A DNA stretch of 64,000 nt from Chroococcidiopsis thermalis PCC 7203 (GTDB lineage: Bacteria > Cyanobacteriota > Cyanobacteriia > Cyanobacteriales > Chroococcidiopsidaceae), in assembly GCF_000317125.1 (NCBI RefSeq), contig NC_019695.1:3522336-3586335 (forward strand), written 5' to 3'. The notes beneath the pieces are model-generated. The model saw only the letters and a program-made list of their open reading frames with translations. It was not told where the DNA came from and did no database searches. Positions within the stretch are counted from its first letter, which is position 1, and each line of letters begins with the position of its first letter. The position numbers were made by a program, and so were the translations under genes. Below are positions 13,077-58,907 of the stretch, piece by piece.

Positions 13077-14261
13077 CTATATCTTGAAATGCACCTGAGA
13101 ATTAAGCTGACACAAAATTTCTACTAATTGCTCAATCTGACTCAATTCATGAGTCGCCATCACAGAAAATCTTATTCTACTTGTCGGTACGGTAGGGGGA
13201 CGAATTGCTGGCGCAAAAATTCCCGACTCTTTCAAATTTGAACCAAATTTTAAAGCCGTGGCTGCATCTGCTAATTGCAAGCACAAAATTGGCGACTCAG
13301 AAGGTAATAATTTTAATTGCGGTAATTCTTGAGTCATTAAATGTTTTAAATAATTAATATTTTGCCAAAGTTGCTGTCTGCGTTCTGGTTCTTCTCGTAC
13401 AATAGAAATTGCCGCGATCGCAGCCGCAGTATCGGCAGGAGAAAGAGCTGTGGTATAAATCCAACTAGCCGCACGGTTGCGTAGAAAATCAATTAAAGCG
13501 GCTGAACCTGCGACGTAACCGCCTAAACTTCCCAAGGCTTTGCTCAGCGTGCCAACTTGAATTAACGGGCTACTAGTAAGATTGAAATGTTCGACGCAAC
13601 CAGCCCCAGTTTTACCAAAAACTCCGGTAGCGTGAGCCTCATCAATTAATAGCATACAGTTAAATTGAGCTGCTAAATCTATTAATTCTGGTAACGGGCA
13701 TAAATCTCCATCCATACTAAAGACACTATCAGTCATAATTAAACAACGACGGTAGCGATCGCGTTGTTCTAACTGGGTTTTTAAAAATAAAATATCGTTA
13801 TGGGGATACTCAATAATTGTTGCACCGCTGAGAATCGCTCCATTTTTTAAGCAAGAATGATTGTATTGGTCTGAAAGAATTAGATCTCGTTTGCCAACTA
13901 AAGCCGCAATTGTACCCAAATTTGCCAAATATCCCGAACTGAAAACTACAGCATCTTCAGTTTGTTTTAGAATTGCGACCGCTCGTTCCAATTCTCGATG
14001 CAATTCTCGATGTCCGCTAAGTAAACGAGAACCCGTACTTCCCGCACCGTATATCTGCGTAGCCGTTATAGCTGCTTGAATTAGTCTTTCATCGCCTGCT
14101 AACCCTAAGTAGTCGTTACTAGCAAAATTAATCAGCGATCGCCCTTCCATTTGGATAATAGCACCAGGGCGGCTGTCAATTGTCTGTACGGCACGATACC
14201 AATCGGCTTTGTGGATGGTTGCTAAAGATTGTTCTATCCAAGCATAAGGATCTTTTGACAT
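13077..14261 (-). CDS. bioF: 8-amino-7-oxononanoate synthase
   Basis: A 394-residue PLP-dependent alpha-oxoamine synthase that joins pimeloyl-ACP/CoA and alanine in biotin synthesis. It shows [31 protein letters not shown], the PLP-site segment [18 protein letters not shown], and the PLP lysine in [19 protein letters not shown] chose ATG 14261 ([11 protein letters not shown]). The frame stays open to 14348 only because it reads through a family A palindrome (14302-14329). No other bio gene is nearby. A related KBL activity cannot be excluded. Confidence 0.88.
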
Positions 14262-14301
14262 GGGGGATGAGAACGTAAATATTCTATACAGCATGATACT
14301 T

Positions 14302-14329
14302 GTAGGGGCGCACAGGTGTGCGCCCCTAC
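14302..14329. repeat. family A 28-bp palindrome upstream of bioF
   Basis: Arm GTAGGGGCGCACAG followed by its near-perfect reverse complement (central GGTG instead of GCTG). It lies in the 5' leader of bioF, about 40 bp from the start codon, and lengthens the open frame without being part of the family protein. Confidence 0.85.
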
Positions 14330-14568
14330 TACAGGTTACGTGTTTCATCTCAGCAATTCAGTAACCTTACCGATATACCTTTTAGAATAGGCGATCGCAT
14401 CTTCTCACCTGAGAATATACCAACAAATACCTAGTAACATCTAAGTAGGAATGCGGAGACAGCTGCACAAGTGCAGAATAAACCAGTGAATTTGCGGTTA
14501 AATAAAAATCAGCCTCATTCTAGGATGATCTCATATTCAATTTTCACTTAGAAAACAAAAGGTGCGTT

Positions 14569-39446: not shown

Positions 39447-39475
39447 AAGCTAAAAAAGGCTAATCAGGTATTTAT

Positions 39476-39503
39476 GGGGGCGTACAGCTAGCTGTACGCC
39501 CCC
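39476..39503. terminator. 28-bp perfect palindrome between convergent genes
   Basis: Arm GGGGGCGTACAGCT with its exact reverse complement. It resembles family A (same length, similar ends) but differs in the arms. It lies 30 bp after DUF3172 and just before the 3' end of the zinc-ribbon gene, so it may be a bidirectional terminator. Confidence 0.7.
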
Positions 39504-39516
39504 TAAAACTAATGAA

Positions 39517-44740: not shown

Positions 44741-44819
44741 TAGGTGGTTGGTAGCTGCACCGCAAAATGATTGGCGATGGTACAGGGATCTTCAACAAAA
44801 CCTGCCCCTACAAATTCTA

Positions 44820-47800
44820 CTAACTGTTCACTCCTTCCAATTCATTTTCGGTCATTTCATACATCTGACGCAACTTTTCTAACTTTTCAGGATCTGCATT
44901 CCAAAAACCGCGTCCGTGTGCTTCGATCGCTCTACCAACAATATTACGAAAAGCTTCGGGATTTGCCTTGCGTAACTTTTCTGCCATCTCTGCGTCAAGA
45001 ACGTAAGTATCTGCGGCTTGGTCATAGACCCAATCATCGGTAAAATCGGCAGTCCCGCCCCAACCAATTAAAGCTGTCATGCGCTGAGAAATTTCAAACG
45101 CACCTCCCGAACCTTGATTTACCATTGCCTCCGCCCATTTCGGATTGAGTAATTTGGTGCGGTATTCCATTCTGAGTAAATCGTCCAAATTACGCGGTGT
45201 CGTATCCTGAGAAAAACTTTCGACAAAACTCGCAGTTACTTTTTTCCCTCGCTGCTTTTCCGCTGCCTTTTTCAAACCACCCGTATTAGCATAGTATTCT
45301 TGAATATCCGTCAGACCGTATTCGACAGAATCGATTTCTTGAACGATGCGATCGCACTTTTGCAATAATTGCGTCAAGACTTCCGGTCTAGCCCGTCCCT
45401 TATCTTGTCTACCATAACTAAATACATTGCGATCGCGCCAAGTATTGCCTAACTCATCCCCCGATTCCCAATTTCCATCCGTGACTCGTTCGTTCACCAT
45501 CGAACCGAAATCGCCTGCTGGATTGGAAAATAGCCGCGCCGACGGATTTTCTACGCCCTGCGCTTGTAAGGCTAAATAGTGCTTGCGGATGAAATTTTCT
45601 GTTTCCGATTCCTCAGCCATAGCCGCCCGTTGGAATAGATCGTCGAGTAATTCGATAATGTTGACAAAGCTATCGCGAAATATGCCGGAAAGATTTCCTA
45701 ACACGTCAATTCGAGGATGTCCCACTTGGGCAAGCGGCTTCAATCCATAACGAACGATTCGCCCCGTACCTTCCTTGATGGGTTCCGCGCCGACTAATTC
45801 CAGTAAAATTCCTAAAGACTCGCCCCGCGTTTTAATTGCATCCAGTCCCCATAACATCACCGCCACGGTTTCGGGATATGCCCCATGTTCTTGTAGATGT
45901 TGGCTGATAATATTTTGCGCGATCGCCTTTCCTCTTTCATATGCCGCAGGTGAAGGCATTCTGTAGGGATCTAAAGCGTGAATGTTGCGTCCTGTAGGTA
46001 ACACACCCATACCATCCCGCAACAGATCGCCTCCAGGTGCAGGAGGGATGTACTCACCATTGAGTCCGCGTAGTAAATTGGTTAATTCCTCATCCGTTTG
46101 CATCAATAAATCGCGGATTTGTAACGCTTCTTCTAATTGTGCGATCGCATTGACGGGCGGGTTTTGAGGAAAGCCGTCTCGTTTTGGCTGTGAATCTTGG
46201 GCTAAACCCGCCCCTACAATTTTCCCATTTGCGATCGCGTCTACCACATCTGCTGATAATTCTTCGCCAAAATATGCTTGCAGATAACTTGCTAATTGTT
46301 CCGCATCTGGAGGTTTTCCTAAAACGTGTAAGCCGCTGGAAAACAGGCGATTTTCTAATACTTGTAGATACTCGTATACCTGTAATAAATAGCGATCGAA
46401 GACGACTTTACTAAATAACCGGGCGTTCTCAGGAGTAAAAGCAATCCCTAAATGCTTTGCTTCTGCCAAGGGACAATCTGTATTAATTCCCGTATCTACA
46501 ATTTTCTTACAAATTGCTTCTTTCAAAGCATAGTTCTTCTCTGGATCTTCACGATATTCAGCAATTAAATCGCGCAATGCTACTAACTCTTTGTATAAGC
46601 CTGCCCGACCGTAAGGAGGAACGTTATGAGAAATAATCGTACCGTATCCTCGCCGCTTTGCCAAAATTGACTCAGAGGGATTATTCGCAGCATAGATATA
46701 CAAATTGGGCAGATTTCCTAACAAAATATCCGACCAAGAATAGCCTGTGTTTCCCAAAGGAGAACCAGGCAACCATTCCACCGTCCCGTGCATTCCAAAA
46801 TGAATCACTGCATCTGCTTGAAATTCTTGTTGCAACCATTTGTAGTAAGCTGCATATTGAGGATGGGGAGTTAAATCGCGATCGAACATCAACCGCATCG
46901 GATCGCCAGGAATACCTAAAGGCGGTTGTACGCCAATCCAAACATTACCTAACTGTACTCCACCCACAAGTAACTCATCACCGTAAGTTTTAATACCGCT
47001 ACCGGACAGAGATTTCCAATGTTTCTCAATTCGAGATGTTTGCAAGTAACCAAGCCATTTTTCTAACCTCTGCGTGGGAACGGTATTTTGTAGGGGCGCA
47101 TCGGTTGGAACGATAGATTGTAGGGGCGCACGGCTGTGCGCCCCTACAGGAATATTTTCATCTGCCTGTTTTACCCACCGGATCAATTCTTCCCCGTCTT
47201 CCGGTAAGTCTCCAACGGTATAGCCTCGATCTTTTAAAGTTTGAAGTAATTTCAGCAGCGATCGCGGTACATTTAATAAGGCTGCCGTCCCTGTAGCTCC
47301 GTAACCAGGGGGAAAACCATAGAGAATAATAGCTATTTTCCTTTCAGCCGCAGGTTTCTGACGCAAAACAATCCATTTGTGCAACCTTGCTACCAAACGC
47401 TGGACTCGTTCGGGGATCAGATAGATCTTTTCTCCCACCAAGCCACCCAAAGGCACGGTATCGATCGCGCCGTCGAGTTCTGGTAGTGCATATAATACGA
47501 CACTTTGCAAGCCCCCGATTCCTTGGCGCGTCCAAGAATGGATGTCTTGAATTAAGAGTGGTGCAGCAACGATATAGGGTACGTTCTTGGCGCTGAGAAT
47601 GCGCGTAGCAACTTCTACCTGTCGTCCAGCTTCCATCGAACCCGCCGGACCACCTACCAAAGGAAAGCCAATAGTAGAAACGATTGCATCGACTGTAACA
47701 GCTTCACTCGATAAAGAAGGAGTTTCGACATTTCCTAGCTGTCTTTGTGCGGTTTCATAAGTTGTCGTCATCCAATCTCTGACTGCAACGTGTCCTTCTA

Positions 47801-48626
47801 CACCGTTAATAAAAATTGGTAAAGGGATTAATCCTGCCCGTTCAAAATAGCGAATTAATTGGGGAATATAAGGTTGTTTGGTGATGACGTGTTTGCGGTA
47901 GAGTAGAATTCCAACAATTGGTTGTGTAGAGAGGTTACATGTAACCTCTCTACATTTTTGATACCAATTTATATATTCGCGGGGTGAGGTGAAAAATCCT
48001 GAATAATCGGGGTGTAATAACCCCATATTGGGTGTTTCGATCGGGGGAGGAATATCGCCTATTCTTAACCCTAAATATTTTTCGGCTAGCGTCCAAAATA
48101 GTGCCGCAACATTATCCGCGCCTCCTGCATTCCAATAGCCGTAGATAATTAGCCAGTTGCGTAAGTCTTGCACTTTTTGAACTGGGACGTATTTTAATAG
48201 TTTTGGTCCCACTTTTAAAAAGCTGATATATCCTGCGAGTCGGTCTTCTTCTCGTCCTTGACTAAATTTATCCAGAATAAATTTAACTGGCTTGGGCATT
48301 CCTTTGGGTTTGTCACCGATCGCAAATGCACCGAGTTTGGTTAAACTCATTAATTCCAAGGCTGACTCAAATACCAAGCGAATTGGGATCGCGGTGAGGC
48401 GATCGCGCAACCACAAAACTTGATCGTAGTCAAATAGCAAGCTACCGAAGAAAACATCAGCGTTATCGAGTGCAGCCTCTATTTCTGTAGGTTTGGTAGA
48501 AATATCGCGATCGCTAAATACGCAAATTTCTAATTCTGGGCAGCGGGAACGTGCCAAATCTGCCGCTTGGCGGTACAAGTCAGCGTTGAAAGATTCAAAC
48601 CCAGCGATCAGTACTATGCGCTTCAT
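44820..48626 (-). CDS. chlH: magnesium chelatase subunit H paralogue (BchH/ChlH)
   Basis: A 1268-residue large chelatase subunit that binds protoporphyrin IX and Mg for chlorophyll synthesis. An N-terminal DUF3479-like domain (IVLIAGFESFNADLYRQA) is followed by the CobN/Mg-chelatase domain (LLYRKHVITKQPYIPQLIRY, HFGMHGTVEWLPGSPLG, SHNVPPYGRAGLYKELVALRD, GLNGEYIPPAPGGDLLRDG). The N-terminus is of the BchH-like type, not the usual longer cyanobacterial ChlH, so it is probably a second copy (perhaps for low oxygen). It holds in-frame palindromes at about residues 225-234, 494-513 and 804-824. No chlI or chlD is nearby. Confidence 0.92.
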   Translation of the reverse strand: MKRIVLIAGFESFNADLYRQAADLARSRCPELEICVFSDRDISTKPTEIEAALDNADVFFGSLLFDYDQVLWLRDRLTAIPIRLVFESALELMSLTKLGAFAIGDKPKGMPKPVKFILDKFSQGREEDRLAGYISFLKVGPKLLKYVPVQKVQDLRNWLIIYGYWNAGGADNVAALFWTLAEKYLGLRIGDIPPPIETPNMGLLHPDYSGFFTSPREYINWYQKCREVTCNLSTQPIVGILLYRKHVITKQPYIPQLIRYFERAGLIPLPIFINGVEGHVAVRDWMTTTYETAQRQLGNVETPSLSSEAVTVDAIVSTIGFPLVGGPAGSMEAGRQVEVATRILSAKNVPYIVAAPLLIQDIHSWTRQGIGGLQSVVLYALPELDGAIDTVPLGGLVGEKIYLIPERVQRLVARLHKWIVLRQKPAAERKIAIILYGFPPGYGATGTAALLNVPRSLLKLLQTLKDRGYTVGDLPEDGEELIRWVKQADENIPVGAHSRAPLQSIVPTDAPLQNTVPTQRLEKWLGYLQTSRIEKHWKSLSGSGIKTYGDELLVGGVQLGNVWIGVQPPLGIPGDPMRLMFDRDLTPHPQYAAYYKWLQQEFQADAVIHFGMHGTVEWLPGSPLGNTGYSWSDILLGNLPNLYIYAANNPSESILAKRRGYGTIISHNVPPYGRAGLYKELVALRDLIAEYREDPEKNYALKEAICKKIVDTGINTDCPLAEAKHLGIAFTPENARLFSKVVFDRYLLQVYEYLQVLENRLFSSGLHVLGKPPDAEQLASYLQAYFGEELSADVVDAIANGKIVGAGLAQDSQPKRDGFPQNPPVNAIAQLEEALQIRDLLMQTDEELTNLLRGLNGEYIPPAPGGDLLRDGMGVLPTGRNIHALDPYRMPSPAAYERGKAIAQNIISQHLQEHGAYPETVAVMLWGLDAIKTRGESLGILLELVGAEPIKEGTGRIVRYGLKPLAQVGHPRIDVLGNLSGIFRDSFVNIIELLDDLFQRAAMAEESETENFIRKHYLALQAQGVENPSARLFSNPAGDFGSMVNERVTDGNWESGDELGNTWRDRNVFSYGRQDKGRARPEVLTQLLQKCDRIVQEIDSVEYGLTDIQEYYANTGGLKKAAEKQRGKKVTASFVESFSQDTTPRNLDDLLRMEYRTKLLNPKWAEAMVNQGSGGAFEISQRMTALIGWGGTADFTDDWVYDQAADTYVLDAEMAEKLRKANPEAFRNIVGRAIEAHGRGFWNADPEKLEKLRQMYEMTENELEGVNS
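46155..46217. repeat. family C palindromic repeat inside chlH, in frame
   Basis: GGGCGGGTTT at 46155 and AAACCCGCCCCTAC ending at 46217 flank a 39-base interior. It is translated as part of the segment just before VNAIAQLEEALQIRDLL. Confidence 0.9.
47090..47147. repeat. family A half-element and full palindrome inside chlH, in frame
   Basis: A full 28-bp family A copy at 47120-47147 (one central change) plus a half copy (GTAGGGGCGCA) at 47090-47100. The minus-strand translation VGAHSRAPLQ and following DAPLQ come from them. Confidence 0.9.
47926..47953. repeat. family B palindrome (variant) inside chlH, in frame
   Basis: Arm GTAGAGAGGTTACA with its reverse complement, 28 bp. It encodes REVTCNLST between EYINWYQKC and QPIVGILLYRKH, a loop before a conserved strand. 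Confidence 0.9.
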
Positions 48627-48794: not shown

Positions 48795-51509
48795 CTACCC
48801 AATTCGATCCAACCAGCCGCCAACATCTACAGATAATTTCTGCCCCAACCTCAATAGATAGCGCAGTTGAGTCAGATCCCAAAGACGATCGCCATTTCGA
48901 CTTTCTGTGTCACCGTCAAGAGTTTGGAGACACTGCGGGATAATTTGACTGTGCAGACAGCGGCAGTAAACTTCTTGGACGCGCGCCAATGATAAACCGA
49001 GATTGAGCTGACAACCGATATCGATTGAACGCTCGATTTTTTGAATGTCCTCTACAGCAACATTACCGTGTAATAGTTGCCAGAGCGATCGCAGCATCAG
49101 CTGTTCTAGACTCTGTTTAACTTCTGGTAACTTCAACTGACAGCGTAACAAGTTAGCTTCTGTAGCGACTGCTTCTAATTCTGCCCAGTGTTCCCAAGTG
49201 TCGCGATCCCCAATTTCTTCACATAGCGATCGCACCAAATCTAAACAGCGACTACCCAAAGCAATCTCAGCCGCAACTTGCAATTCTTGGGGTACGGGTA
49301 AGTAATCGCGGTGGTAAGCCATGAGTACCCCATAATTATCGCGGTAAACTTGGGTGTAGAGCAAATCTAACCGTGTCAAGCTTTCCTGACTTAACATCTG
49401 GACGATCCGGTGACGTTCTTCTGCAATTAAATCTTGCAAATTGAACGAGCGATCGCCAAATATTTGAATCAGCTTCTGAATCGCATGGGCAGCGCTAGCT
49501 TGTTGCAAAGACTCAAACACTTGCTCTTTCATCTGGTTGTACGATCGCCGCCCTGTAAATGGCTGAATGCAGCAATGAAAATCCCAGCCACCGAGATGCA
49601 ACACGGCAAACACCAACTCCTCCTTCTCCCAGGTAATTTCTGACGTGAGTTCCAATTGCCCTACGGCTAGAGTCAGCGTACCGACGCGCTGCCATTGGTA
49701 GTCTAGCTGATTGACTGTATAGCAATAGATATGCGGAGTAGGAAGCAGGCAGTGAGTTGTAGAAAAGCGCTCCAACTGACTGTTGACCGTTGACCGTTGA
49801 CCGTTAGAGCCGATTTCCTGTTTCCTAAATAAGGACGTAATGGCATATTGAGCGGCAATTTGCTGAAAGTTAACCTGGGCAGTTAGCACCAGTTGACGGT
49901 AGACTTCCGCCCCATGACCGAAAAACTCGACATTACTAGGGGCAAGGCTGAGATGGTTGATAAATTCTTTTTCCAGTTGCACGCCTGCCACATCTTCGGC
50001 AAGTTCCAAAGCTCTAGCAGCATAACGCAAAATTTGCGTGCCTTCGGGACGGGAAATTTCTTCAAAGAACCAACCGCAACTCGTATACATTAACAAGGCA
50101 TGGCGCTGCATCTCCAATAACCGCAGAGCATCGACTCGTTCTGAGTCCGTCAGCGAATGGGATTGATGGCGAGAGAGGAAGCGTTGAACGTTAGCCACCG
50201 AGCGATCGCGAATGACTTGAATATATTCATCCCGTGCTAACCAGGGATCGCAGAATAAACTTTTAGCAGCAGTTTCGTAAACATCAATTAAGCGCTCGCG
50301 CAGCCAATCAAGGGCGTTGCGTAGGGGTCGCCGCCATTTTTGATGCCACTCACCACCACCACCGCAACCACAATCATCTTGCCAGCGGTCTACACCATGC
50401 GAACAACTCCAAGCAGTGACGGGCTTGAGTTCTACTTCCCAAGTTGGCGGATCGAGGCTGAGATAATGGGCGTAGTTCGTTACCGTCCAACCTCGGCGGG
50501 GAAATTCTTCTGTAAAGGCATAGGCGAAGGTTTTTTCCGTACCACCTTTGTGATGTCCGAAAGTTTCACCATCTGTAGCAACAGAAATTAACTGTGCGGG
50601 ACGGCGATCCCCGCGAATTGCCAGTCCCATCCGTCCGATAAACTGATGGGAATTGCTGAGTGCATCGCTAAAACCCATATCCCGCGAAATTGGACCATCG
50701 TAGAAGAAGATATCTATGTATGGGGTTTCTTGTAGAGACGTTACATGTAACGTCTCTACATTTGACGATTTCAAATAGCAACGATAGGGACGAGTGGGAT
50801 CGATCTGGCTACCCCCAACTTCGTGCCACTGAGTTACTGGCTGTTCGTCTGTGGGGATCGTTCGACAGCGCTGGGCTTGGGAGGGAGCGAGAATAATGAA
50901 GCGAATTCCCTCTGCTACCAAAGCCTCTAAGGTGGGATAGTCTACCGCAGTTTCCGCCAACCACATGCCTTCGGGAGCGCGTCCAAACCGGGAGCGAAAA
51001 TCTTCTATACCCCAGCGAATTTGAGTGTATTTGTCTCGTTCGTTAGCTAGAGGTAGAATGATGTGATTGTAAACTTGAGCGATCGCATTACCGTGACCGT
51101 TAAGACGAGCGCAACTATTGCGGTCTGCTTCAATTATCCGCTGATACACCTCCAAATCGTAACGCTCTAACCACGACAGCAGCGTAGAACCGAAATTGAA
51201 GCTGAAATACTCGTAGTTGTTAACGATCCCCAAAACTTCACCGCGATCGTTCAATACCCTGGCAAAAGCATTTGGACGATAGCATTCATGGTGGATGCGT
51301 TCGTTCCAGTCGTGAGCGGGTGCAGCACTAGGCTGACGCTCGATCGCATCTAAGTAAGGATTCTCGCGAGGTGGCTGATAGAAATGACCGTGAACGGTCA
51401 CGTATACACCTGTAGCCGTTTGCAGGGGATTGAGACTTACTTGATGCTTGGCATCGCGATCGAGCGGAAAATTTGATTCAGCAGCTGGAAGATCGGCAGC
51501 AGAGGTCAT
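48795..51509 (-). CDS. glycoside hydrolase family 57-like, DUF3536 protein
   Basis: About 904 residues from ATG 51509 (TTG 51524 also possible). The N-terminal GH57-type fold shows TVHGHFYQPPRENPYLDAIE, HHECYRPNAFARVL, GMWLAETAVDYPTLEALVAEGI and ATDGETFGHHKGGTEK (acidic residues of the active site). The C-terminal half is DUF3536. The family is thought to act on alpha-glucans. Family B is translated at about residues 251-260 (VETLHVTSL). Residues about 568-590 come from a GTTGACC tandem repeat region. The gene lies before chlH in the same direction, with a family A palindrome between. Confidence 0.88.
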   Translation of the reverse strand: MTSAADLPAAESNFPLDRDAKHQVSLNPLQTATGVYVTVHGHFYQPPRENPYLDAIERQPSAAPAHDWNERIHHECYRPNAFARVLNDRGEVLGIVNNYEYFSFNFGSTLLSWLERYDLEVYQRIIEADRNSCARLNGHGNAIAQVYNHIILPLANERDKYTQIRWGIEDFRSRFGRAPEGMWLAETAVDYPTLEALVAEGIRFIILAPSQAQRCRTIPTDEQPVTQWHEVGGSQIDPTRPYRCYLKSSNVETLHVTSLQETPYIDIFFYDGPISRDMGFSDALSNSHQFIGRMGLAIRGDRRPAQLISVATDGETFGHHKGGTEKTFAYAFTEEFPRRGWTVTNYAHYLSLDPPTWEVELKPVTAWSCSHGVDRWQDDCGCGGGGEWHQKWRRPLRNALDWLRERLIDVYETAAKSLFCDPWLARDEYIQVIRDRSVANVQRFLSRHQSHSLTDSERVDALRLLEMQRHALLMYTSCGWFFEEISRPEGTQILRYAARALELAEDVAGVQLEKEFINHLSLAPSNVEFFGHGAEVYRQLVLTAQVNFQQIAAQYAITSLFRKQEIGSNGQRSTVNSQLERFSTTHCLLPTPHIYCYTVNQLDYQWQRVGTLTLAVGQLELTSEITWEKEELVFAVLHLGGWDFHCCIQPFTGRRSYNQMKEQVFESLQQASAAHAIQKLIQIFGDRSFNLQDLIAEERHRIVQMLSQESLTRLDLLYTQVYRDNYGVLMAYHRDYLPVPQELQVAAEIALGSRCLDLVRSLCEEIGDRDTWEHWAELEAVATEANLLRCQLKLPEVKQSLEQLMLRSLWQLLHGNVAVEDIQKIERSIDIGCQLNLGLSLARVQEVYCRCLHSQIIPQCLQTLDGDTESRNGDRLWDLTQLRYLLRLGQKLSVDVGGWLDRIG
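50732..50759. repeat. family B palindrome inside the GH57 gene, in frame
   Basis: A perfect 28-bp palindrome with arm GTAGAGACGTTACA. On the minus strand it reads VETLHVTSL between CYLKSSN and QETPYIDIFFYDGPISRDM. Confidence 0.92.
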
Positions 51510-51849
51510 GAAAGTTATATCCAAATTACAAATTAATTTTTACAAGCTCTACAATCTGCTACCCTACATTGCTCAAAGGAGTAGCTATGTGAAATAACGT
51601 GCTTAAGACTCTAGATTAAAACTCAAATGAAGCAGAGATCGAGATAGCTGGGCGGTAAATCGTAACTGATGGCAGATGTTGAAGTCAGTCGCACCCTAGC
51701 TTGACCTTGCTCCTCAGCATGAGATCGCACTCGATCTTATTAAACTGCAAGTTTAGGTTTATTTAAGATTGGCTTAATATTTTTGCAACTAGCTTTGGGG
51801 ATCGGTTCACGAATCTACACGATTGGTTACAAATCAGTTATCAGTTGTC

Positions 51850-57783: not shown

Positions 57784-57974
57784 GAAGGCAACTTTCAAGG
57801 GGATAACAAACTACAGATCGTAATGCGATCGGTATATCACCCGATCGCCAGAGAATAAATTGCTAGTAGCAGTAGTCAAAATGACTCATGCTACACAAAA
57901 CTTTAGTATTCTAGTGAACGTACCATAATAATTTGCAACATAATTTGCAACACCCGATAACAAAAGGAGTCAAG

Positions 57975-58907
57975 ATGATCGCGTCGGAGGCAAAGAAGCC
58001 ACTGACAGTTCCCAAGGAGTTTTTAGCACCTCCTGAGAAAATAAATCCCGATGTGTGGATGTTTCTGGCAGCCATGACCTTATTGGCATTATCCAACTGC
58101 GGTTACTGGCTGTGGGAGTGGCAACACTGGTGCTGCTTCACAATTAACGTTCTTGCCATTCATCTGTCTGGCACTGTGATTCATGATGCTTGCCACCAAG
58201 CTGCCCATCCTAATCGAATTATCAATGCAATTTTAGGGCATGGCAGCGCCATGATGTTAGCTTTTTCGTTTCCCGTATTTACGCGGGTACACCTACAGCA
58301 CCACGCCCATGTCAACGACCCAGAAAACGATCCGGATCATTTTGTCTCTACTGGTGGTCCTCTGTGGTTAATTAATGCTCGCTTCTTCTATCATGAAGTA
58401 TTTTTCTTTCAGCGGCGATTGTGGCGAAAATACGAATTATTAGAGTGGTTTATTAGCCGTGCAATTGTCGCAGCAATTTTTTACATCTCAATTCAATATC
58501 ACTTTTTGGGCTATATCCTCAATTTTTGGTTTATCCCAACTGCTATTGTTGGGCTGACTTTAGGATTATTTTTTGATTATCTACCCCATCGCCCATTTAG
58601 CGATCGCGGGCGTTGGACAAATGCCAGAGTTTATCCCAATCCGGTACTGAATCTATTGATCGGCGGACAGAATTATCACCTCACCCATCACCTATGGCCT
58701 TCAATTCCCTGGTATAAATATCAACCCGCATACCATGCCACCAAGCATCTTTTGGATGCCAAAGGCAGTCCTCAAACTCTAGGTATCTGGCAAGGAAAAG
58801 ACTTTTGGAGCTTTTTATATGATGTCTTTCTAGGGATTCGGTTGCATCGGAAAGAGGAAACGAGTGTAGAGACGTTACATGTAACGTCTCTACACAATGA
58901 CCAATAA
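57975..58907 (+). CDS. crtR: beta-carotene hydroxylase (fatty acid desaturase family)
   Basis: A 310-residue membrane diiron enzyme making zeaxanthin. AAAGGAG lies 6 bp before ATG 57975. His boxes are VIHDACHQAAH, HLQHHAHVNDPENDPDH and the late LTHHLWPSIPWY. The N-terminus ends in KPLTVPKEFLAPPEKINPDV and helices include LAAMTLLALSNCGYWLW. The last about 13 residues (SVETLHVTSLHNDQ) derive from a family B palindrome, so the natural C-terminus has been replaced or extended. No other carotenoid gene is in the window. Confidence 0.88.
   Translation: MIASEAKKPLTVPKEFLAPPEKINPDVWMFLAAMTLLALSNCGYWLWEWQHWCCFTINVLAIHLSGTVIHDACHQAAHPNRIINAILGHGSAMMLAFSFPVFTRVHLQHHAHVNDPENDPDHFVSTGGPLWLINARFFYHEVFFFQRRLWRKYELLEWFISRAIVAAIFYISIQYHFLGYILNFWFIPTAIVGLTLGLFFDYLPHRPFSDRGRWTNARVYPNPVLNLLIGGQNYHLTHHLWPSIPWYKYQPAYHATKHLLDAKGSPQTLGIWQGKDFWSFLYDVFLGIRLHRKEETSVETLHVTSLHNDQ
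58866..58893. repeat. family B palindrome at the crtR 3' end, translated
   Basis: A perfect 28-bp palindrome (arm GTAGAGACGTTACA), read in frame as VETLHVTSL before the crtR stop at 58905-58907. It also lies before the convergent MBL-fold gene end. Confidence 0.92.

Follow-up and report, generated by a model that had tools for sequence, protein, structure and literature searches.

Within a 64,000-nucleotide stretch of the genome of Chroococcidiopsis thermalis PCC 7203 (hereafter the window), a gene for a ChlH2-type subunit H of magnesium chelatase contains three different palindromic repeats, here called A, B and C, all of them in frame. The repeats lie in the three segments that vary most in length among orthologues of this protein, and in other genomes the same segments hold other, unrelated repeats. 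We consider it probable, at roughly three chances in four, that A, B and C are small, non-autonomous palindromes repeated in high copy number, similar in kind to repetitive extragenic palindromes (REPs) and small dispersed repeats (SDRs), that they are foreign to the enzyme, and that selection keeps in-frame copies in its dispensable segments. A sequence-only reading of the window had already reported three palindromic families in frame within this gene, and this is borne out, the open reading frame (ORF) being uninterrupted across all of them. It had also taken the repeats for mobile elements whose insertion in surface loops is selected. That view stands insofar as the contents of the sites differ between congeners and purifying selection acts outside the segments; its single-gene scope is too narrow, because in-frame copies are found in other genes and the ChlH2 genes of other cyanobacteria hold other repeats.

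Three palindromic repeats in a ChlH2-type gene

In profile searches, the protein that carries the repeats scores 1594 bits against the BchH profile TIGR02025, above the cut-off of 829, and remains below the cut-offs of NF009140 (989 bits, cut-off 1300) and NF009942 (824 bits, cut-off 1166). It matches PF02514 with 1103 bits and PF11965 with 168 bits. The genome (G000; 6.69 Mb in three contigs) encodes two more members of the CobN/ChlH family, a CobN (L001) and a standard ChlH (L002). The latter is the true ChlH1, with 2287 bits to NF009140, and the ChlH2-type protein is 36% and 39% identical to it in two segments. ChlH2 is described as a second H isoform that some cyanobacteria possess beside ChlH1 and CobN (PMC10156173; this and the other papers given by PMC number are cited from excerpts), and, judged by its sequence, the gene at 44820-48626 fits that isoform. 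Among the matches listed, an orthologue with at least 69% identity is present in at least 37 of the 59 relatives searched. Outside the variable segments, purifying selection is strong, with a ratio of nonsynonymous to synonymous substitution rates (dN/dS) of 0.036-0.045.

Elements A and B start with TGTAG and end with CTACA; C starts with TGTAG, its terminal CTAC being gone (Table 1). The copy of A in this gene differs from the family consensus by one mismatch. Family A is present in the window in five copies (at most three mismatches) and family B in three, against none in 100 shuffles for either. Genome-wide, there are 182 copies of A and 199 of B (at most two mismatches, for B to its commoner form), together with 39 strict matches to C, and none of the reversed control patterns returned a match. 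The more general pattern GTAG-N20-CTAC has 438 matches in the genome, against 142 for the reversed pattern. In 60 genomes, the own included and up to two mismatches allowed, family A was found in five (182 copies in G000, 200 and 76 in the congeners G001 and G002, 8 in G033 and 1 in G007), and it is numerous in the genus only. Family B was found in 17 of the 60, with 199, 54 and 152 copies in the genus and 133 in G049. A C-like half element lies at 44781-44811, a few bases past the stop codon of the ChlH2 gene, and the palindrome at 39471-39508, which is 89% paired, resembles A except for its altered ends (TTTATGGGGGCGTACAGCT...).

Two details of the sequence-only reading need to be revised. 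What it described as a half copy of A is better explained as belonging to a 30-bp tandem duplication, whose units agree at 23 of 30 bases; this head-to-tail duplication (47070-47129) takes in half of A together with flanking host codons, and the congener G001 has a single A. The residues VNAIAQ beside C, which it gave as a conserved block, are not conserved, and the conserved block starts near EEAL.IRDLL.

Insertion sites and length variation among orthologues

The sites were compared across an alignment of 112 orthologues, 110 of them distinct: four exact duplicates were removed before alignment, and two further ones (L048 and L117) were recognised later. Seventy-six sequences come from named genomes, where the best 80 of the 173 stretches found were taken, so the set leans to close relatives. 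The orthologue L027 (G011), which is cut by its stretch, and that of G033, which is split over two contigs, were left out. The alignment has 1188 columns that are occupied in at least 95% of the 112 sequences. Structural comparison consisted of alignment with ChlH and CobN chain sequences.

The three insertion sites are the top three length-variable segments of this alignment, and they remain so among the 109 sequences from outside the genus. Wide length variation is also seen in two other segments, but it is confined to 5 and 4 of the 109, respectively. Under random placement, one element would fall into each segment with a probability of about 4e-5, and all three anywhere within the segments with a probability of about 3e-4; the segment borders used for these figures come from the alignment that includes the genus, and are identical without it. 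The sequence-only reading had proposed that the inserted residues would be absent or variable in orthologues, and at all three places they are.

A repeat signature was defined as a perfect inverted repeat with an arm of at least 10 or a tandem run of at least 11, a strict definition that misses decayed repeats. Of the 110 distinct orthologues, 46 have such a signature in at least one segment; in 20 draws of matched core windows, the number was 0-3 of 110. Kinship is ignored in this comparison. Among segments of at least 36 nt, inverted repeats (arm of at least 10) occur at site B in 20 of 72, at site A in 14 of 76 and at site C in 6 of 80, whereas core stretches of equal length contain none (0/360, 0/380 and 0/400, respectively). 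Tandem runs of at least 11 are present at site B in 15/72 segments versus 0/360 core stretches, and at site A in 7/76 versus 0/380. These per-site counts include the two duplicates recognised late.

Table 1. Position of the ChlH2-type gene, its repeats and variable segments, and a further in-frame copy, in the 64,000-nucleotide window
Feature	Position	Strand	Remarks
ChlH2-type magnesium chelatase subunit H gene	44820-48626	minus	ORF open throughout, 1268 aa
Family B element	47925-47954	.	perfect 30-bp palindrome TGTAG...CTACA, read CREVTCNLST
Family A element	47119-47148	.	30-bp palindrome, one mispair, read VGAHSRAPLQ
Family C element	46155-46217	minus	63 bp, arms GTAGGGGCGGGTTT / AAACCCGCCC, last CTAC lost
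Tandem duplication, first unit (3′ half of A and flank)	47100-47129	minus	23/30 bases as in second unit
Tandem duplication, second unit (most of the alleged half copy of A)	47070-47099	minus	23/30 identical
Variable segment 1 (aa 224-237, holds B)	47916-47957	minus	length range 63 aa, 112 orthologues
Variable segment 2 (aa 492-514, holds A)	47085-47153	minus	length range 45 aa, 112 orthologues
Variable segment 3 (aa 788-832, holds C)	46131-46265	minus	length range 116 aa, 112 orthologues
Family B copy in GH57/DUF3536 gene (48795-51524, minus)	50731-50760	.	in frame, VETLHVTSLQ

Turnover of repeats within the genus

The ChlH2 protein of G000 shares 95% identity with that of G001, and likewise with that of G002. 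Site B holds palindrome B in G000 and G002, and heptamer arrays in G001. At site A, the element and its duplication in G000 are represented by a single A in G001, and by an unrelated long hairpin in G002. Element C is present at site C in all three genomes; G001 has in addition an A-like copy and a stretch that is duplicated, and G002 another stretch.

The other members of the protein family also contain repeats. A palindrome also stands in the loop that precedes PVVYPDMG in the true ChlH1: it is of B type in G000 (12 of 14 pairs) and G002 (14/14) and of family A in G001 (13/14), with A and B at an identical offset and in the same register across the three congeners. At that offset, G043, which belongs to another family, has GTAGAGGCGCACCATGGCGCGTCTCTAC (12/14 pairs). 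This loop was readable in 18 of 20 outgroups, and the 17 besides G043 reach only 6-9 of 14 pairs. Heptamer-like stretches abound in the CobN genes of the genus. Of the three genomes, G001 alone has an A-like element in CobN, and a C-like one is found in the CobN of G001 and G002 only. By eye and unscored, two heptamer-derived stretches of CobN (L001, L179-L182) appear to be placed like sites B and C of ChlH2.

On a larger scale, blocks of 464-480 kb from the three genomes were compared, and each of 81 elements was sought in the two genomes other than its own. The resulting 162 reciprocal look-ups comprise 39 A-A and 30 B-B matches, no A-B match, 42 cases of another insert, 15 sites scored empty and 36 without synteny. 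Switching from A to B as a general rule was rejected, being found in 0 of 69 same-site palindrome comparisons, which are reciprocal and non-independent; it was seen at ChlH1 only.

Other repeats at the same sites in other lineages

The contents of the ChlH2 segments vary by lineage. Many orthologues contain heptamer arrays, which we take to be the short tandemly repeated repetitive (STRR) sequences of cyanobacteria; they occupy the same segments in congeners and in other species, and are tandem, whereas A and B are palindromic. A B-like VETLHATSL is present at site A in L045, L046 and L087, while GQDARSTK units are found in the ChlH2 segments of G050, and PTPTLPVHGEG in those of G049 and G056.

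Two of these inserts, those of G050 and G049, were checked against their own genomes. The genome of G050 contains its unit at 43 places, 4 of which are in the ChlH2 gene; in other genomes, the unit was found at 17 places in G019 (of the same genus as G050), at 3 in G049, and at none in G000, G014 and G056. For the G049 motif, the count is 26 places in its own genome (1 of them in the ChlH2 gene), 6 in G056, 1 in G029, and none in G000, G043 and G050.

Site C holds tandem sequences in two further orthologues. That of G014 (L041) has about nine in-frame copies of a 30-bp minisatellite (PQPHQKSYTL), and that of Okeania sp. SIO3I5 (L119) has tandem duplications of host codons (LDTDFGHGYTDD...DLLMRN), its segment reaching 120 aa.

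In-frame copies in other genes

The frequency of in-frame copies was estimated from 864 kb, made up of two 400-kb blocks and the window, which contain 59 strict 28-bp elements of A or B type; coding flanks were judged by hexamer score, with no gene caller. Coding sequence flanks 15 of these elements on one side and 35 on neither, and seven are placed in frame within a coding region. Compared with random places, 2244 of 4000 of which are in frame (Fisher p 3e-12), this amounts to a roughly fivefold depletion in genes. The window was chosen for such copies and holds three of the seven; without it, 4 of 52 elements are in frame. Because A and B are palindromic, both strands have the same two open phases, and TAG lies in the third. 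None of the 59 elements puts TAG in frame, and the seven in-frame copies are split 4 and 3 between the two open phases. A looser scan for GTAG...CTAC pairs at most 94 bp apart placed 14 of 70 in frame, and was dropped for the strict 28-bp set because its long-range pairs look like chance matches inside genes. Two degenerate in-frame copies (block 1, 282013; block 2, 131763) appear in the loose scan only.

The seven in-frame copies are hosted by genes for alanyl-tRNA synthetase (alaS), nicotinate phosphoribosyltransferase, a non-ribosomal peptide synthetase, an isopentenyl pyrophosphate transferase (by our own reading of MiaA type), a GH57/DUF3536 protein and, twice, ChlH2. Within the genus, in-frame copies are also present in the true ChlH1 and in CobN. 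When ChlH1 is added to the seven, the repeat class differs in one congener or both at 6 of 8 sites, which is not an unbiased rate because ChlH1, located outside the 864-kb sample, was added for its noticed insert. At the GH57/DUF3536 site, both congeners have heptamer arrays. One exception to the change of class is the nicotinate phosphoribosyltransferase site, where each of the three genomes has B or a remnant of it. The other is alaS: B lies in frame (G000:C1 42753-42780; L131 2753-2780), and both congeners have a shorter, repeat-free stretch; the native ends there, GGTGAG and TTTAC, resemble the ends of the element.

Probable origin and retention of the inserts

We propose that copies of these repeats would reach genes by some copying process, after which purifying selection would purge nearly all of those that shift the reading frame, bring TAG into it or fall in a structured part of the protein. 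The survivors would occupy a few dispensable segments, and would add 10-21 residues to the translated protein. In ChlH2, the three segments would then represent long-lived sinks, filled, and apparently overwritten, in many lineages by the repeats of each genome. We infer that the elements are actively mobile, and that the inserts are translated, exposed at the protein surface and nearly neutral. The 30-bp length of A and B is a multiple of three, and alaS shows that the net gain need not equal the length of the element.

Several observations weigh against this interpretation. At the orthologous sites in the 464-480 kb blocks of the three genomes, we found no clean empty site with exact borders and no target-site duplication; among the look-ups scored empty (15 of 162), several are larger deletions or have rearranged flanks, and none has clean borders. 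Most comparable elements are old enough to be shared, because 69 of the 162 look-ups show the same family. The site closest to a clean empty one is in alaS, where the net gain is 18 bp for an element of 28 bp, and since this falls below the element length, host bases must have been replaced. For two of the 59 sampled elements, the coding flanks are on the same strand but differ in frame. Among the 110 distinct orthologues, 64 have no clear repeat signature, and segment 3 has one in 9 only; site C is a weak site with respect to tandem runs of at least 11 as well (3/80 versus 2/400 in the core). Segments free of a signature may vary for other causes, or may hold decayed repeats. Lastly, no REP-associated tyrosine transposase (RAYT) or other mover was recognised in G000.

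A related idea is that some of the loops are exchangeable repeat cassettes, in which later repeats, instead of inserting anew, overwrite earlier ones by template switching or conversion between copies, so that the frame is kept and unrelated families alternate at the same codons. This is suggested by the class change at 6 of 8 sites, by the alternation of A and B at ChlH1, and by the G043 palindrome at the same offset, and we hold it only tentatively, as unlikely. The elements might also be GTAG REPs that are moved by a RAYT, as has been proposed for REPs in other bacteria. The traits of GTAG REPs, namely the tag, the 28-30 bp palindrome, high copy number, in-frame copies and cyanobacterial families, are described in PMC3733652, and REP doublets forming hairpins (REPINs) are reported for the RAYT-containing Nostoc punctiforme (PMC3116915). 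However, G000 has four Y1 transposases of 132-135 aa, each adjoining an ORF of 389-412 aa; they are therefore taken to be of IS200/IS605 type, the neighbouring ORFs being read, unscanned, as TnpB/OrfB. GTAG palindromes are absent within about 1.5 kb of all four genes. With four Y1 genes that adjoin TnpB-like ORFs and none that adjoins an element, a RAYT was rejected as the mover in G000, and the explanation in general appears doubtful. Y1 matches in the congeners, 8 in G001 and 6 in G002, were counted only.

Rather than being tolerated, the hairpins could be kept for a role in mRNA or DNA, such as translation pausing between domains, mRNA stability or supercoiling. Copies of B have 16 compensated double changes, against a shuffled mean of 2.1 and maximum of 8 (copies of common descent being counted repeatedly), and the B elements in the ChlH2 genes of G000 and G002 differ by one compensated pair. 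A structural or conversion-like constraint may therefore act on B, as its compensated changes exceed those in shuffles. Family A, in contrast, shows no excess, with 2 such changes against a shuffled mean of 4.2, and covariation was rejected as a general feature of the elements. Further, the same segments in other species hold heptamer arrays or no detectable repeat, and the depletion of in-frame copies in genes also speaks against a retained function of the hairpins, which we judge improbable. We give equally little credence to the idea that the segments are variable linkers that grow by local slippage and duplication, and that their likeness to dispersed repeats is secondary. The heptamer arrays, the 30-bp duplication in G000, the 30-bp minisatellite in G014 and the host-codon duplications in Okeania are of the kind that slippage would generate, but A, B, C and the inserts of G050 and G049 each have many matching counterparts dispersed in the genome that carries them. 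Slippage cannot bring such matches and so fails as the sole cause, while it stays a contributing process. That the inserted peptides are themselves functional and selected is the least probable explanation by far. In-frame retention is in keeping with it, and nothing further in its favour was found; the listed segments have no common peptide or length, as judged by eye, and family B is read in two different phases.

Relation to known repeats and implications

In-frame REPs and cyanobacterial GTAG REPs are already known. According to PMC3733652, GTAG REPs occur in cyanobacteria, bacterial ORFs can contain GTAG and CGTC REPs in frame, and recB of two Xanthomonas species has different REPs at approximately one position; the paper adds that some species with GTAG repeats may be without REPtrons. 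Compared by description only, our elements have in common with the cyanobacterial families GTAG-12, -15 and -16 of that paper the tag, a short palindrome, high copy number and some placement within ORFs. A and B are 28-30 bp long with GTAG...CTAC, and C is longer, at 63 bp; copies are numerous, dispersed and mostly intergenic, with some inside ORFs; and G000 yielded no RAYT flanked by repeats. The elements differ from GTAG REPs in being tagged and paired at both ends, in that no RAYT was recognised here, and in that several unrelated repeat classes are found at the same sites across 110 orthologues.

Rickettsia palindromic elements (RPEs) are 105-146 bp long (PMC2229807). They are found in frame in conserved proteins, where they are tolerated, in 19 ORFs, and a guanylate kinase is active with its insert (PMC2229807, PMC6649704, PMC3733652); the intragenic RPE-4 and RPE-6 of R. 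conorii have been counted as CGTC REPs (PMC3733652). By description only, RPEs and the present elements are alike in being palindromic repeats that lie in the reading frame of conserved proteins. The present elements lie outside the RPE size range, with 30 bp for A and B and 63 bp for C, and they belong to a different phylum and have a different tag.

The palindromic ends of A, B and C may also be set beside the terminal inverted repeats of miniature inverted-repeat transposable elements (MITEs), for which a clean empty site or a target-site duplication was, as stated above, not found in the compared blocks. The SDRs that Elhai and colleagues described in 2008 from Nostoc and its relatives are reportedly 21-27 nt long, show compensatory changes and are embedded in tandem heptamers; we know of no in-frame use of them in proteins. 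Family B, which we compare with the SDRs by description only, exceeds shuffles in compensated changes, as family A does not, and lies inside heptamer arrays at two places, noted by eye (G2 118489 and G1 343469 of the joined blocks).

The sequence-only reading knew of no comparable description. This holds for chelatase H, as no report of repeats inside its gene was found in titles and the opening parts of abstracts, in a search outside which most subscription journals lay; it does not hold more widely, given the in-frame GTAG and CGTC REPs and the cyanobacterial GTAG REPs in PMC3733652. Apparently undescribed is a set of fixed segments of one protein family that are filled by unrelated repeats in many species and change within a genus. 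If our interpretation is correct, mobile repeats of 30-60 bp would represent a continuing source of new loop sequence in housekeeping enzymes across a large free-living bacterial group. Such inserts would then be no mere curiosity of Rickettsia, and one protein family would record them across many species. ChlH2 could thus serve as a comparative system for the movement of short palindromes without a recognised transposase, and for the tolerance of enzyme loops towards foreign sequence. It would also call for caution, in that such segments of cyanobacterial proteins should not be taken for functional motifs unless tested, nor length variation by itself for adaptation.

Other copies at ORF ends in the window

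Two further copies in the window lie at the ends of ORFs. A family A copy at 14302-14329 is located at the 5′ end of ORF 13077-14348 (minus strand), whose start is probably placed too far upstream, because the listed N-terminus reads through the copy. A family B copy at 58866-58893 provides the C-terminal residues (VETLHVTSLHNDQ) of ORF 57933-58907, and G001 has heptamer-like arrays in that place.

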